Assembly (NCBI GenBank): GCA_002723155.1
Contig: PBNO01000002.1
Span: 403,774 to 439,025 of the forward strand
Reading direction: 5' to 3'
Length of the DNA stretch: 35,252 nucleotides
DNA from: Ponticaulis sp.
GTDB lineage: Bacteria > Pseudomonadota > Alphaproteobacteria > Caulobacterales > Hyphomonadaceae
In this document: piece after piece, positions 16,276-21,472 of the stretch
How positions within the stretch are numbered: position 1 is the stretch's first letter
Layout of the letters: the number at the start of each line of letters is the position of its first letter
The notes under the pieces: model-generated
Told to the model about the DNA's origin: nothing
The model's database searches: none
The model's input: the letters and a program-made list of their open reading frames with translations, nothing else
Made by a program: the position numbers and the translations under genes

Positions 16276-16352
16276 TGGCGCACCCGAGAGGATTCGAACC
16301 TCTGGCCTCCGCCTTCGGAGGGCGGCGCTCTATCCAGCTGAGCTACGGGTGC
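16276..16352 (-). tRNA. tRNA-Arg (anticodon CCG), copy 1
   Basis: On the minus strand the acceptor GCACCCG pairs with CGGGTGC, followed by discriminator G and an encoded CCA (16276-16278). The D-arm is GCTC/GAGC. The anticodon stem CCGCC/GGCGG encloses the loop CTCCGAA with anticodon CCG. The T-arm is AGAGG-TTCGAAT-CCTCT. All stems pair, so the gene looks functional. It differs from copy 2 at compensated stem positions. It sits between the metal-resistance region and the small integrative element and is a likely attachment site. Confidence 0.95.
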
Positions 16353-16388: not shown

Positions 16389-16486
16389 AGATTTTCGTCG
16401 GCCTAAAGAGCGAACCCGACATCCGCTCAAGCCGTTGTTTAATCAATTCTTTCTTCCGGCACCTTTCGCAATCGCCAGACTTGACA

Positions 16487-16504
16487 TCCGCCTTCGGAGG
16501 GCAG
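16487..16504. repeat. Candidate left attachment core: hybrid tRNA-Arg anticodon-arm fragment
   Basis: Eighteen bases reproduce the anticodon arm of tRNA-Arg(CCG). On the tRNA strand they read CTGCC-CTCCGAA-GGCGG-A. The 5' stem matches copy 2 (21396-21472) and the 3' stem matches copy 1 (16276-16352). Fifteen bases (16490-16504) are repeated exactly at 21431-21445 inside copy 2. This is the expected product of recombination in the 7-base anticodon loop. A single inverted arm-like TGCCCCACG follows at 16514-16522. Confidence 0.6.
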
Positions 16505-16630: not shown

Positions 16631-16651
16631 TGTGGGGCATGTGTGGGGCAA
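16631..16651 (+). repeat. 21-bp direct repeat (paired TGTGGGGCA), integrase side
   Basis: Two TGTGGGGCA units 11 bp apart are followed by A. The block is identical to 21311-21331 at the other end of the element. It ends four bases before the integrase ATG, so integrase binding here could also repress its own gene. It is read as a pair of arm-type sites. Confidence 0.75.
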
Positions 16652-16654
16652 AGT

Positions 16655-17962
16655 ATGACGAGACGCATAAAACTGACCAACAAAGCAGTGAACGACCTGC
16701 AGCCCGAGGACAAGCGCTATCGGGTCAACGACACCAAGCAGACAGGCCTGTGTGTGGTGGTCCAGACAAGTGGCTCTAAGACGTTCAGCGTCCGCTATAG
16801 GACGGCAGAGGGTAAGAACAGCGACAAGACGCTAGGGCGCTTCCCAGAGGTCTCAGTGGAACAAGCTCGTGATCTGGCCTCAGAGACTCTCACAGCGGTC
16901 ACCACTAAGAAGATCGACCCAGCAGAGGAAGCCCGCAAGGCACGCTCAGAGGGCACTACGAAGCGACAGAGGACGCTATCAGCACTCATAGAGGAATTCC
17001 TCAAGCGCGAGGAGGTGCGCGGGAACGTGGGCGCGGGAACGCTCTCAAAGAAACGCCATCACCTGCTGAACAACGTAGTCCCACTTGCAGGCAAATGGCA
17101 GGTCCAAGACATTCGCTATGCTGACGTCGACGGACTCATGCCCGAGCTAACCAAGCGTATCAGCAAGAACCCGCAGGCTAAGAACGGCAGCGCGGGAGCC
17201 AATGACTGCCTCAAGTATCTGAAACAGGTCTTCTCCTTCGGTGTCCGTATCGAGTGGCTAGACAGGAACCCTGCAGCAGAAGTCGAACGACTCCCTGAGA
17301 TACCAAACAACCGCACAGCCACCGACGCTGAACTCAAGGCACTCTGGAACCTCTGGGACAAGCGTATGAGCGAGGGAAGGCCGCAGGACTGGGTAGCCAG
17401 CGCCGCCCTTCAATTCCTCACCCTGACGCTTCAGAGAGGCAACGAGGTTGCTCTAGCGAAGTGGGTGAACATTAATGTTGAAAGTAGGACTTGGGCTATC
17501 CCGCGAGAAGACAAGAAGGAACGCAGAGAAAGCCTAGTGCCTCTTGCTCAGGCTGCACTGAATATCCTCGCTGAGGCCAAGGAGCGCTTTCCAGAGAAGC
17601 CTAACGTCTTCATAGGGCGCACTGGAAACGCCATCAGACGCGACTCACTCACACAGGCATTTAGTCGAGACTGTGAGGCGCTAGGCATTCAGGGACTCAC
17701 TATGCACGACCTGAGGCGCACCGGAAGGACTGCCATCACTAACCCTGAGAGGCTTGGCTTCCCACCCCATGTGGGTGAGGCGGTGTTGAACCACGCCACC
17801 GGCGACAAGCTCACACGGACGTATGACCGTAACGACTATCTACCAGACAAGCGCCGCGCTCTCGATGCGTGGGCCACAGAGATTCTTCGAGTAGCCGGAA
17901 AGCTGCCGGAGGATAACACCGAGGGAACCAACGTGGTCCCTTTTGCAACAACTCAGCCGTGA
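16655..17962 (+). CDS. P4-type tyrosine integrase (DUF4102 N-terminus)
   Basis: The 435-residue product has an N-terminal DUF4102-like arm-binding domain (LTNKAVNDLQPEDKRYRVND, then FSVRYRTAEGKNSDKTLGRFPEVSVEQAR), a SAM-like core-binding domain (about 105-205) and a C-terminal catalytic domain. Catalytic residues visible are R261 (LQRGNE), H351 and R354 (HDLRRTGRT), H380 (VLNH) and Y390 (TRTYDRN). It should carry out site-specific integration and excision at tRNA-Arg. ATG 16655 is preferred over the in-frame GTG at 16643, because the GTG lies inside the repeated arm site; neither has a strong ribosome binding site. The first arginine box reads LQRGNE, not the commoner R-x-GE form, but the overall set is complete. 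Confidence 0.93.
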   Translation: MTRRIKLTNKAVNDLQPEDKRYRVNDTKQTGLCVVVQTSGSKTFSVRYRTAEGKNSDKTLGRFPEVSVEQARDLASETLTAVTTKKIDPAEEARKARSEGTTKRQRTLSALIEEFLKREEVRGNVGAGTLSKKRHHLLNNVVPLAGKWQVQDIRYADVDGLMPELTKRISKNPQAKNGSAGANDCLKYLKQVFSFGVRIEWLDRNPAAEVERLPEIPNNRTATDAELKALWNLWDKRMSEGRPQDWVASAALQFLTLTLQRGNEVALAKWVNINVESRTWAIPREDKKERRESLVPLAQAALNILAEAKERFPEKPNVFIGRTGNAIRRDSLTQAFSRDCEALGIQGLTMHDLRRTGRTAITNPERLGFPPHVGEAVLNHATGDKLTRTYDRNDYLPDKRRALDAWATEILRVAGKLPEDNTEGTNVVPFATTQP

Positions 17963-18048: not shown

Positions 18049-19032
18049 CTAAAACTTTCTGAAGGCGGCAAAACTGAAGTTGTGATCACCTTCGGCAAGA
18101 GCGCTTATATCCGCATAAGATTGCAGCGCGAGATACTGCTCTCCGTCAAAGTCCCTCCAAGTCATTCGAACCAATGCGAACAGGGCCTTTGGCGAACGTC
18201 CTTCGCTACCAGTAAATAAATCCGAGTACGGATAGACGAAACTCCTGCGCACTTTAAACGGTTGCTGTGGAAGAATATCAAATCGAGAATCTTCACCGAA
18301 GGTACGAACCAACTCTACTCCAGCGTCTTCCCCAAAACCCCACCTAGCCTCAATATCAATCTGATAGCTGAAGTCCTTGGCAGCCGTCTCTCCAGCATTG
18401 CCAAAGACTATCGCAACATGCACCACGGCTTCCCCAAAGGCCTCAAAGGCCCCAAAGGCCTTAAAGCCCTCAACCCTCTCATGAGGAACAACCTGAAGGC
18501 TAGCATCTTGTATATGAAGCAAGGGACGAAGTTGGTCGCGAGTCGCGTCGTAGCTTTTCGTGACAAACCTAGCAGTTTGGTTAGTCTCCAGTAGCGTGAA
18601 GAAAATAGCCACAAGACCAACTGCGGTGAACACGGCAATCCAGATGGTCCAATGAGCCATCCTCTGCTGCGCCAACAGATCACTCAACTCCACGGACAAC
18701 GGAGTCAAGTAAGCTTGCTCACCATCCGTACGGCCCCCCTCTTCGTCGCCAGGCTCTGAGTCGATGCATTCCACAGCTCTAGACACAACAGGAGGAAACA
18801 ACCGAACGATGCGATAGCGCTCCTGCGAACTCTCGCAGACTACCCCCACACTTTGACCCGCGTATTCACGACGCATACCTGCCTCTGAAGGGGCCGTGCG
18901 GTACGCGATGAATAGAAGAATAAACATCAGCAAGAACACTAAAAATGCACCGCCATAGCGCTTACGAGCAGCGACGAAGAAGCTCTTGAAGCCGCCAGCC
19001 TTTCGTCCTTGAGCCTCCTCTTCTCCATGCAT
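18049..19032 (-). CDS. Unknown two-helix membrane protein, cargo of the element
   Basis: I do not recognise the family. The 327-residue product has two transmembrane helices (about 28-44 and 127-148), a roughly 80-residue extracytoplasmic loop with Cys66 and Cys89, and a C-terminal cytoplasmic domain of about 175 residues. The C-terminal domain is rich in beta-type segments and aromatic residues (for example RSFVYPYSDLF, VRMTWRDFDGEQYLALQSYADI). ATG 19032 is chosen because GGGAGAG precedes it by about seven bases; an ATG pair at 19068 has no ribosome binding site. A stretch FKAFGAFEAFGEA comes from tandem 9-bp coding repeats at about 18437-18470. It is convergent with the integrase and divergent from the repeat array. 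It could be a defence, exclusion or immunity protein, but nothing in the sequence proves that. Confidence 0.7.
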   Translation of the reverse strand: MHGEEEAQGRKAGGFKSFFVAARKRYGGAFLVFLLMFILLFIAYRTAPSEAGMRREYAGQSVGVVCESSQERYRIVRLFPPVVSRAVECIDSEPGDEEGGRTDGEQAYLTPLSVELSDLLAQQRMAHWTIWIAVFTAVGLVAIFFTLLETNQTARFVTKSYDATRDQLRPLLHIQDASLQVVPHERVEGFKAFGAFEAFGEAVVHVAIVFGNAGETAAKDFSYQIDIEARWGFGEDAGVELVRTFGEDSRFDILPQQPFKVRRSFVYPYSDLFTGSEGRSPKALFALVRMTWRDFDGEQYLALQSYADISALAEGDHNFSFAAFRKF

Positions 19033-19630
19033 TCGATATCTCTCCCAGCTTCCAGATAGCAACATCATAGGCGATTCTTATAGATTTCAATTGAACATTG
19101 AGACCGCAAGACAACCTACCTTGGGAGCGAGGCAGACCATGCAGCTCGAAAGAAACACCAACAACATGGTCAGCTGCCCGAGCAGCAGACACACTGGCCG
19201 CCCTTACAGAAAGTCCCCGACAGAGCGCTGAAAACGTACGATTCACGCTCCAAGTTAACTCACTGTTTTTTATATATTTTCTCAAAACCCTTCATATAGG
19301 AGATACGAGTCGTCCTTTGGGCCAGCCGAAAGCACGCGCTCAAAACCCCACATATAGGAACTATCCCCGTGAGATTTTCACAACACGGATAGCTCTAAGA
19401 GCGGGAATCTTGACGCCCTGAACACGCCTTCGGCTCAAGACCCAGCGTATAGGAATTCTTCGTGCTTCCATCCGGCTCTGAAACACCCGTTCGCCCATAA
19501 CCCCGCGTATAGGAACTGCCAGTCGCTTTTAGCCCTATGAGACTACCCAGTGCGACAGGTCCAGAGCCACCCCAGAGAGAGCCTCAAGGCCTCTCACCAC
19601 TACCCCAATCTAACAATTGAAGGAACCGAC
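19033..19630. other. Long intergenic region with iteron-like repeats
   Basis: About 600 bases lie between the divergent membrane-protein gene and the ParB-like gene. The stretch contains the four repeats at 19281-19516 and an AT-rich patch at 19263-19280 (run of T and TATATATT). No convincing coding sequence is present; a GTG-initiated upstream extension at 19550 has no ribosome binding site. The combination of repeats, an AT-rich tract and an adjacent DNA-binding protein gene resembles an origin, centromere-like or operator region. Confidence 0.55.
19281..19516 (+). repeat. Four iteron-like 23-bp direct repeats
   Basis: Copies lie at 19281-19303, 19339-19361, 19434-19456 and 19494-19516. 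Each has a CTCAAAACCC-like left half (CTCAAGACCC in copy 3, CCCATAACCC in copy 4), four or so variable bases and TATAGGA at the right. All are on the same strand. Start-to-start distances are 58, 95 and 60 bases. Copies 3 and 4 share similarity further upstream (CTGAA, then CAC, then TTCG). The spacing is too irregular and the units too diverged for CRISPR. They precede the ParB-like gene by about 115 bases. Confidence 0.75.
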
Positions 19631-20404
19631 ATGATCGGAACACCTACGCCTGACCGCTTGGCGATCCTCAGGGACGCTGAGCGCATCACCGTGGCAGTGG
19701 ACTGTCTCTCCGTCGAAGAGAGCCTCTGCTGCAGAAACAAACTAGAAGAAGCACGTATCGTGTTGATTAGCCGCGCCATCAATGCAGGCAGCGACATTGG
19801 CGAACTAGTGGTCGCAAACGTAGAGGGCATCCTGACCCTCATAGACGGGTTTCACCGCTATCATGCGTTACTGCGGTCCAGCCGAGGAATGGCGAAAGCC
19901 TTTCTTCTCCGAGGAGACCTCACACGAGAGGAGGCCCGATGGTTGGCCTTCGCGCTTCACTGGAAGGCTGAGAAGCCACTCACGAACAGTGAACGCAAAG
20001 AGGGCTTCAAGGCCTACGTTAGAGCCGGTGGCCACGTGAGGGCGAAGACGGCGAAAGGCCACCGCGACAGATACAAGACGTATCGTGAGATTGGCGAAGA
20101 ACTCGGTATCGCTCACCAGACCCTGCACGGCTGGATGAGGAGCATGTTTCCACGCATCGCAGATGACATGGGTAATGATGCACCAGTGGCCGAAGCGCCT
20201 AAGCTTTGCCGCAAGGAGAAAGCTAAGCGGGAACGGATGCGCAGGATGAGCCACTATGCGAGCCAGATCGCCACCCTAGGCACTGGCGACGACGACCTCA
20301 AAGAACACGCTGAGGAACTGCTGGCCACCGCGTTTTCTCGGATAACCGGCAAGCGGAGTCGAGAGGCCATCATCGAGAGAACCGACAGTCTCTATGACTT
20401 CTAA
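19631..20404 (+). CDS. ParB/Srx-like DNA-binding protein
   Basis: The 257-residue product has a ParB/sulfiredoxin-like N-terminal domain. The sequence GILTLIDGFHRYHALLRSS corresponds to the conserved 'hydrophobic-DGxHR' segment, followed by LTREEARWLAFALHW, which replaces the usual A-x-x-x-N helix. A KorB-like helix-turn-helix follows at about 150-175 (TYREIGEELGIAHQTLHGWM), and a basic, helical C-terminal part contains KRERMRRM. ATG 19631 has AAGGAA six bases upstream. No ParA is encoded nearby, so chromosome-type partitioning is doubtful; it may act as a transcription or replication regulator. The iteron-like repeats directly upstream are its most likely binding sites (inference). Confidence 0.78.
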   Translation: MIGTPTPDRLAILRDAERITVAVDCLSVEESLCCRNKLEEARIVLISRAINAGSDIGELVVANVEGILTLIDGFHRYHALLRSSRGMAKAFLLRGDLTREEARWLAFALHWKAEKPLTNSERKEGFKAYVRAGGHVRAKTAKGHRDRYKTYREIGEELGIAHQTLHGWMRSMFPRIADDMGNDAPVAEAPKLCRKEKAKRERMRRMSHYASQIATLGTGDDDLKEHAEELLATAFSRITGKRSREAIIERTDSLYDF

Positions 20405-20586
20405 CCAATTGAAACTAATAGGCTTTCTTTACGATCTGTCCGAGATGGACAAGTTCATCTGACAGCACACCCCCGAAAGCCCCCGTGAACACGAGAAGTT
20501 CGCGTCAAACAAGCCCGCTTTAGAATTCAACGAACAGGCCCGCCCAGTGAAAGCTGCGGCGGGCTTTCTGTTATGCAGGAAAAAAC
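20405..20586. other. Leader between ParB-like and HNH-like genes
   Basis: This gap of 182 bases contains a rho-independent terminator at 20538-20569 and no gene. The terminator lies only about 20 bases before the next ATG, so it may act as an attenuator for the HNH-like gene or simply end the ParB-like transcript. Confidence 0.5.
20538..20569 (+). terminator. Rho-independent terminator after the ParB-like gene
   Basis: GCCCGCC (20538-20544) pairs with GGCGGGC (20558-20564) across a 13-base loop and is followed by TTTCT. The stem is perfect and GC-rich; the T-run is short. A nearby AAGCCCGCTTT at about 20511-20521 could compete for the same arm. Confidence 0.7.
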
Positions 20587-21003
20587 ATGAACGTTCAAAA
20601 CATCCAGACTTTCATCGACAGCAAAGGCATCGAAGTCGCCCTAGTACCCCTTAAAGGCAAACACGCAAAAGACACACCGTACGCCCAGATCGACATGGAA
20701 GACCTCCAAGCACTCGCAGAACGAGGCATAGGCCTGAACTGGTGCATGAACCACAACGGTAACGGTTTGCTGTACGTGTCGGGCAGCAACCCAGAAATGG
20801 CTTCTCCGCGCGTTAACATCGCCCGAGAAATCATGCAGCCCCGCGTGGGCCAAGTGGTCACCTACCGCAGCACCGACCGGAGCAACCTAAGACGCTCAAA
20901 CCTACTACTGACTGACGGCCCTCAACGGGCGCGGACTCTGAAACAGATTCCCGAACCAGAGGCCGTGAGCAGCTCAGCGTGTCCAAACATGAAATCAGCG
21001 TAA
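20587..21003 (+). CDS. Degenerate HNH-fold small protein
   Basis: The 138-residue product resembles phage and island HNH proteins in its second half. The segment VNIAREIMQPRVGQVVTYR, then STDRSNLRRSNLLLTD, aligns by eye with the usual 'hREIM-x-P-x-G-x-VVDHxNGnxlDNRrxNL' motif. The catalytic DH is replaced by TY, and the central Asn-Gly and final Asp are also changed, so nuclease activity is unlikely. A DNA-binding role is plausible. The N-terminal half (IDSKGIEVALVPLKGKHAKDTPYAQIDMEDLQALAERGIGLNW) is of unknown type. AGGA precedes the ATG, and 16 bases separate its stop from the next gene, so the two are probably cotranscribed. The family assignment is by pattern only. Confidence 0.6.
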   Translation: MNVQNIQTFIDSKGIEVALVPLKGKHAKDTPYAQIDMEDLQALAERGIGLNWCMNHNGNGLLYVSGSNPEMASPRVNIAREIMQPRVGQVVTYRSTDRSNLRRSNLLLTDGPQRARTLKQIPEPEAVSSSACPNMKSA

Positions 21004-21019
21004 AATTCTGAGAGGCCTT

Positions 21020-21286
21020 ATGACTAGACAACTCCACTCAGATTCCCCCCATACCCTCACCGACAATGCAGCTCGAGACGATAGACTTCTCTCCCTGAAA
21101 GAGACCGCAGCCATGCTCGGAGTATCCCAAGCGACACTCAGGAAGTGGCGTGAGAAAGGCACAATGCCCTTCCCCACCTACTTCGCAGGCACTCTGCTGC
21201 GGTTCAGAGCGAGTGAGGTTTGGGCCTCAGTGATCGCCACAAGGCATCACAACTTAGCCGAGGCGCTGACCATCAGAACCGCTTAG
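21020..21286 (+). CDS. AlpA/MerR-like excisionase or small HTH regulator
   Basis: The 88-residue product has a winged helix-turn-helix of the HTH_17/AlpA/excisionase type: LLSLKETAAMLGVSQATLRKWREKGTMPFP, then a wing (LLRFRASEVWASV). Such proteins next to tyrosine integrases commonly act as recombination directionality factors or regulators of the integrase. Its position 25 bases from the right-hand arm repeat and attachment site supports an excisionase role. GAGAGG precedes the ATG at 21020. Confidence 0.78.
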   Translation: MTRQLHSDSPHTLTDNAARDDRLLSLKETAAMLGVSQATLRKWREKGTMPFPTYFAGTLLRFRASEVWASVIATRHHNLAEALTIRTA

Positions 21287-21310
21287 CCTGCAGGCAAACC
21301 CCACGCCCGT

Positions 21311-21331
21311 TGTGGGGCATGTGTGGGGCAA
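21311..21331 (+). repeat. 21-bp direct repeat (paired TGTGGGGCA), right end of element
   Basis: This is an exact copy of 16631-16651, in the same orientation and 100 bases from the anticodon core in tRNA copy 2. An upstream CCCCAC at about 21299 makes a short hairpin with the first unit. It is read as an arm-type integrase site. Confidence 0.75.
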
Positions 21332-21395
21332 GCTGAGAGAAAGCTAACAACGAAACGCTCAGCTGGAAATTTATCTTATACTTTCAACGAGGTAA

Positions 21396-21472
21396 TGGCG
21401 CACCCATCAGGATTCGAACCTGAGACCTCTGCCTTCGGAGGGCAGCGCTCTATCCAGCTGAGCTATGGGTGC
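21396..21472 (-). tRNA. tRNA-Arg (anticodon CCG), copy 2
   Basis: On the minus strand the acceptor GCACCCA pairs with TGGGTGC, then discriminator G and an encoded CCA (21396-21398). The D-arm is GCTC/GAGC. The anticodon stem CTGCC/GGCAG encloses CTCCGAA (anticodon CCG). The T-arm is TCAGG-TTCGAAT-CCTGA. All stems pair. It borders the chromosomal backbone and contains the right-hand core repeat of the integrated element at 21431-21445. Confidence 0.95.

Follow-up and report, generated by a model that had tools for sequence, protein, structure and literature searches.

The 35,252-nt stretch of the Ponticaulis sp. genome analysed here (the window) carries a 4.94-kb island that extends from attL to attR, the latter lying within a tRNA-Arg(CCG) gene (Table 1). 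BLASTN comparison with sister genomes revealed the vacant site in three of them (G081, G083 and G084), where the sequence ending at window position 16504 abuts that starting at 21424 and the 22-bp core is present once; this core is identical to attL and differs from attR at two positions. The att repeats and the vacant site identify a tRNA-integrated island and bear out the preliminary description of this DNA, which had placed the repeats discussed below in a mobile element. In the stretches compared, two of the three remaining genomes of the genus (G080 and G082) have in common with the window only the right side and the tRNA gene, and in the third (G085) the shared part is limited to about 50 bp in the tRNA region. 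There is also a second complete tRNA-Arg(CCG) gene at 16276–16352, 130 bp outside the island, and the empty site in the three sister genomes carries a relic of the 5' half of a tRNA gene; because of these two features, the insertion spot looks like the scar of an older insertion.

Table 1. Features of the island and its integration site (positions in the window; L and G numbers designate related loci and genomes).
Feature	Position	Strand	Evidence
attL, 22-bp direct repeat, two differences from attR	16483–16504		single copy at the empty site in G081, G083, G084
Tyrosine integrase	16643–17962	+	Pfam Phage_integrase 2e-13, Arm-DNA-bind_3 2e-16
Membrane-type ORF (by eye), presumed cargo	18049–19068	-	no PADLOC match; no family at curated cut-off
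AT-rich patch, touches repeat 1	19262–19284		17% GC
Repeat 1	19281–19301	+	pattern and matrix scans
Repeat 2	19339–19359	+	pattern and matrix scans
Repeat 3	19434–19454	+	pattern and matrix scans
Repeat 4	19494–19514	+	pattern and matrix scans
Orphan ParB-like protein, 257 aa: ParB N domain, HTH, helical tail	19631–20404	+	phrog_1033 3e-5; AlphaFold mean pLDDT 79.5; Foldseek Noc/ParB/KorB
GC-rich hairpin, then TTTC	20538–20566	+	position by eye; also before the next gene in L012, L013
138-aa protein, possibly a degenerate HNH relative	20587–21003	+	no Pfam match of its own; homologues in L013, L048
AlpA/excisionase-like HTH_17 protein	21020–21286	+	Pfam HTH_17 2e-8; TIGR01764 excise above cut-off
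tRNA-Arg(CCG), integration target	21396–21472	-	tRNA gene
attR, inside the tRNA gene	21424–21445		empty-site comparison with G081, G083, G084

Related loci cited repeatedly are L014 (genome G055), L044 (G139), L047 (G250) and L048 (G289); G000 is the window's own genome. The homologue of the 138-aa protein in L013 shows a weak match to HNH_3 (20.2 bits, under the cut-off), and the GC-rich hairpin followed by TTTC is present in three of the four elements compared. Kinship between the membrane-type ORFs of the window and L044 was rejected, as BLASTP revealed none. As a small island with an integrase and AlpA, the element resembles PICMI phage satellites, whose criteria comprise integrase, AlpA and primase (PMC10803314); Pfam searches found no primase among the five main genes, one of which encodes the ParB-like protein instead, and the island falls outside that class as so defined.

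The ParB-like protein had no match to Pfam ParB_N. Foldseek searches with its AlphaFold model indicated Noc, ParB and KorB as the nearest structures (E 3e-6 to 8e-4, probability 1.00 at E 3e-6); the query TM-scores of the 22 best matches were just 0.27–0.43, with rmsd of 12–19, which we read as a different placement of the domains. A profile search related the protein to Noc (1e-6), with sulfiredoxin/SerK-like relatives also among the matches. The model thus assigns the protein to the ParB/Noc/KorB fold superfamily, with a predicted ParB N domain and HTH, and at this fold level the earlier designation of the 257-residue product as an orphan ParB/KorB-like protein holds. The GERRxR CTP box is replaced by DGxHR in all 15 of the 15 aligned ParB-like proteins, as in sulfiredoxin/SerK-like relatives; L049 contains one GERR string, elsewhere in the protein than the CTP-box position. 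In agreement with the ParA-less arrangement described previously, no ParA ATPase was found among the five main island genes (Pfam, NCBIfam), nor a KGG-type Walker A motif in ORFs of at least 60 aa of six bounded elements; no Rep-family initiator was found at the curated cut-off among the island proteins.

The gap between the start of the membrane-type ORF and the ATG of the ParB-like gene is 562 bp long and contains only mechanical ORFs. The unit CYCAWRACCC-NN-CRTATAGGA occurs in it four times, always on the plus strand, with copy-to-copy spacings of 58, 95 and 60 bp. The preliminary description had reported four same-strand 23-bp repeats at these intervals in a gene-free region beside an AT-rich patch, and all of this was recovered except the length of the unit: a repeated two-part unit is present, but its conserved length is closer to 21–22 bp. 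Both halves are near-unchanged across the four copies, while the flanking sequence differs. At up to three mismatches the window contains four matches, against a chance expectation of about 0.01, and none of 100 shuffles reached four. In the complete 3.84-Mb genome, the degenerate pattern found the four window copies at zero mismatches and two scattered sites at three mismatches; the reversed-pattern control likewise gave four matches at up to three mismatches. Counting 8-mers upstream of the gene gave nothing remarkable (the top 8-mer occurring three times, against a shuffle maximum of three), and the signal is that of the long two-part unit, not of short k-mers. The spacings match no helical phase.

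Scans for known sites gave no DnaA box within one mismatch in 18901–19700, no host-type parS within three mismatches in the window and, in a weak test, no sigma-70-like promoter in 18950–21400 compared with 1.0 expected from shuffles; host-parS mimicry and a promoter array were rejected on the second and third of these scans, respectively. Sites for the excisionase are unlikely, since the array lies 1.9–2.8 kb away from the att ends. A structured leader RNA was rejected for the window (z -0.63); a strongly folded leader 5' of the ParB-like gene was observed in L049 (10090–10230, z -6.0), and z was -3.0 in L044.

A matrix built from the four window copies alone was scanned, with a flexible gap and a cut-off of 14.5 bits, over the 1.5 kb preceding each of 14 other ParB-like genes. 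Four matches were found in L014 and two each in L044 and L048, eight in sense and none in antisense orientation, all within 1.3 kb upstream; the shuffle means were 0.005–0.055 per locus and 0.41 summed over the 14 loci, the gap range and cut-off having been fixed after the sequences of these three loci were known and the shuffles having been scanned identically. Absence of the repeats beside homologues in other islands had been named in advance as the outcome that would speak against the proposal; they recur at three of the 14 loci (in G055, G139 and G289). Since the other 11 loci, including the closest homologues L012 and L013, have no array above the threshold, the link between the array and the ParB-like gene is not obligatory. 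The initial proposal is thus supported in part: the repeats, the mobile island and the recurrence stand, and the 11 loci speak against a tight pairing. The array of L044 is absent from L045–L047 and L049, whose ParB-like proteins are 52–55% identical to that of L044, which leaves four of the five L044-type proteins without one. Upstream of seven ParB-like genes without the array, no clear array of another kind was apparent; in L043 and L046 the gene is preceded by short GC-rich repeats.

The arrays differ in layout. That of L044 comprises seven units 31–35 bp apart, in which Tandem Repeats Finder saw no array. In L014, 16 right-half units are gene-oriented and 2 opposite within 1.5 kb, against 3 and 6 in the remaining 12.5 kb; the 16 units span 1.1 kb and both halves are present in three of them. 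Three pairs of right-half units (L014 3082–3884) form doublets 13 bp apart. A first reciprocal matrix of seven sites ranked the window repeats 1–4 (22.6–24.9; next non-overlapping site 12.9); because its sites had been chosen for likeness, second matrices were built from all units. The matrix of all seven L044 units ranked the window repeats 1–4 (14.3–18.3; next 11.1) and the three L048 sites 1–3 (17.4–27.0; next 11.7), and in L014 two sites came barely first (11.8 and 11.5; next 11.1). With the 16-unit L014 matrix, an unrelated site was top in the window (13.9), the repeats being ranked 2, 4 and 13 and the fourth copy falling outside the best 14; the L048 sites were ranked 1, 2 and 4, and two L044 units were ranked 1 and 2 with low scores (10.4 and 9.4). 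Judged by these sequence comparisons, the kinship of the arrays of the window, L044 and L048 is firm, and that of L014 to the others looser. In the protein tree, where some nodes are weak, the array-bearing proteins fall into three clades (the window; L044 with L048; L014), and because of this spread an ancestral array lost in relatives would be the simpler reading.

Searches of larger sets placed these arrays against the background. In 388 genomes of the order, one fixed pattern at up to two mismatches gave 72 matches in 62 genomes, compared with about 52 for the reversed control (both totals hand-counted), so single matches are mostly background; two matches within 2 kb were found only in G000 and G289, both upstream of ParB-like genes, with a pattern partly shaped by G289 that misses the G055 and G139 arrays. 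In 11 chosen genomes at three mismatches, the pattern and its control each gave 11 matches; five of the pattern matches lie within arrays (two of four in G000, one of two in G139 and two of two in G289, with none of the single matches in G055, G069 and G350). Whole-locus scans of distant ParB-like loci from 29 sources (L005 serving as control) yielded nothing judged array-like, with scattered matches of at least 14.5 in six loci (L026, L027, L034, L036, L058 and L064). Isolated matches of at least 15 outside arrays are located at window position 1558, L013 14410 (17.1, outside its island), L048 13141 and L026 2184; a look-alike at L013 5143 scored 14.5 in an earlier scan and was below the cut-off with the window-only matrix. 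The array DNA had no match in phage or plasmid records, and the exact motif, in two patterns, was absent from viral contigs.

ParB-like homologues are present in 4 of 105 genomes of the family, 8 of 398 of the order and 7 of 398 of the phylum, the window's genome included each time, and in 1 of 385 of the class, which is the window's own; these counts were obtained with differing cut-offs on overlapping genome sets of no more than 398 genomes each. The family of G139 has homologues in 6 of 137 genomes. The window protein had no match in phage records and one in plasmid records, a 3.45-kb Roseomonas record. Searched in its turn, the protein of that record gave matches in 44 plasmid records including its own, mostly short stretches in Streptomyces, and in two Aeromonas phages. 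Pairs of att sites were found for L013 (10.5 kb), L014 (12.5 kb), L044 (6.7 kb) and L045 and L046 (4.2–4.3 kb), and the cargo of L013, L014 and L066 includes restriction genes of type III, type II and type IIG. In the 4.2–4.3 kb relatives (G154 and G170), ORFs of at least 130 aa encode only the integrase, the ParB-like protein and a serine resolvase, ORFs largely overlapping a longer one being left out of this count. An RNase HI gene, recognised by Pfam in L044 (9248–9796) and as a 60% identical homologue in L047 (8777–9268), lies immediately 5' of the ParB-like gene with a 4-bp overlap. The plasmid p1318-9 (L043) carries a ParB-like homologue and a separate HTH protein (1298–1834). Relatives of the latter occur in a further 24 plasmid records, of which 17 measure 1.2–5.5 kb, and are annotated, if at all, as hypothetical or helix-turn-helix; this protein is a candidate for an unnamed plasmid initiator. 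On account of its relatives, p1318-9 was rejected as evidence of a Rep function for the ParB-like protein.

The occurrence of the array before the ParB-like gene in four islands suggests that they have a site for maintenance or control in common. The reading that we favour, with rather less than even confidence, is that binding of the ParB-like protein to the iteron-like array serves the maintenance or replication of the island after excision. The integrase and AlpA-like factor would release the island in circular form; its own ParB-like protein, encoded just downstream and the likeliest reader of the array, would load on the direct repeats, which would then be iteron-like cis-acting sites of a small integrative island family; the loaded protein would support maintenance of the circle, most probably through replication start or copy control, and would occupy the slot filled by the primase in phage satellites such as PICMIs. 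Replication iterons are typically asymmetric direct repeats located 5' of a DNA-binding gene, and iteron plasmid origins employ Rep/WH initiators; the island resembles such origins in its ~21-bp repeats 5' of a DNA-binding gene and the adjoining AT-rich patch, but its protein has a ParB fold and not a Rep winged helix, the spacing in the window is irregular and a DnaA box was not found. Maintenance is preferred because the sites are asymmetric, multiple and on the same strand, because the small relatives have no clear maintenance gene besides those for the ParB-like protein and the resolvase, and because of the RNase HI gene in G139 and G250. Counted against it are the window spacings, which match no helical phase, the missing DnaA box, the 11 array-less loci, the poorer fit of G055, the negative Tandem Repeats Finder result for L044 and the fact that ParB-fold proteins with an HTH also act as activators, e.g., StrR (PMC10886168). 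The more specific proposal, in which replication of small integrative islands is initiated by a ParB-fold protein that has no ParA partner and binds a conserved two-part iteron array, seems unlikely; if true, it would represent a replicon type overlooked by plasmid typing schemes. The plasmid p1318-9, where another protein is the likelier initiator, argues against a general role of this kind.

A strong rival to maintenance, though in itself rather unlikely, is an operator array, where a StrR- or KorB-like regulator would bind the repeats and control its own operon (the ParB-like, HNH-like and AlpA-like genes), perhaps together with the membrane-type gene that diverges from it, and would in this way time excision. 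This agrees with the position of the array between divergent genes and 5' of the operon, with KorB among the fold matches and with a domain order resembling that described for StrR (PMC10886168). StrR-type activators share the ParB-like N domain, HTH and helical tail, but control antibiotic clusters, whereas the island gene belongs to a mobile island with a direct-repeat array. Usual operators for dimers are unlike such asymmetric sites in one direction, the 16 units of G055 would be many for an operator, and the empty promoter scan also speaks, weakly, against control of this type. It appears improbable that an orphan ParB and a parS-like array form a segregation site that relies on a ParA supplied by host, plasmid or phage: the window sites are not palindromic, unlike the ParB-HTH sites known to us, host-type parS was not detected and DGxHR stands in place of GERR. 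Such a site would nevertheless suit the ParB N domain and HTH, shared with parABS/Noc/KorB proteins by model and fold match, and has a precedent in SGI1, which is reported to hijack an IncC parABS system (PMC10954446). A simple ParB/parS pair was rejected, since neither ParA nor a palindrome was found.

It is quite improbable that the array is read by something other than the ParB-like protein, for instance by a helper phage, by the AlpA-like protein or by a host factor, and stands beside the ParB-like gene by module order. In favour of this, the presence of the array in L044 and its absence from L045–L047 and L049 does not track ParB-like identity, but phage, plasmid and viral records gave no matches and the tree fits loss from an ancestral array. 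That the array is left over from an earlier replicon and now plays no role is very improbable, as both halves of the unit are nearly constant among the four copies while the flanks differ, even if the copies are few and irregularly spaced and many relatives have none.

Among the matches listed, judged by title and abstract start, no described counterpart of the array and ParB-like pair was recognised in the open-access literature, in line with the earlier remark that no named system with this motif is known. Small integrase/AlpA islands, often with defence genes, can be without a recognised replication gene, and a recurring array beside an orphan ParB-like gene would give a concrete cis/trans module for island persistence or switching-on. 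Sequences of the form CCCCTAGAAG / CTTCTAGGGG lie by the ParB-like genes of resolvase-bearing elements (L046 8779–8869, L044 about 8687 and L043 2074–2118); they form an inverted pair in L046 and are possible resolution or ParB sites.
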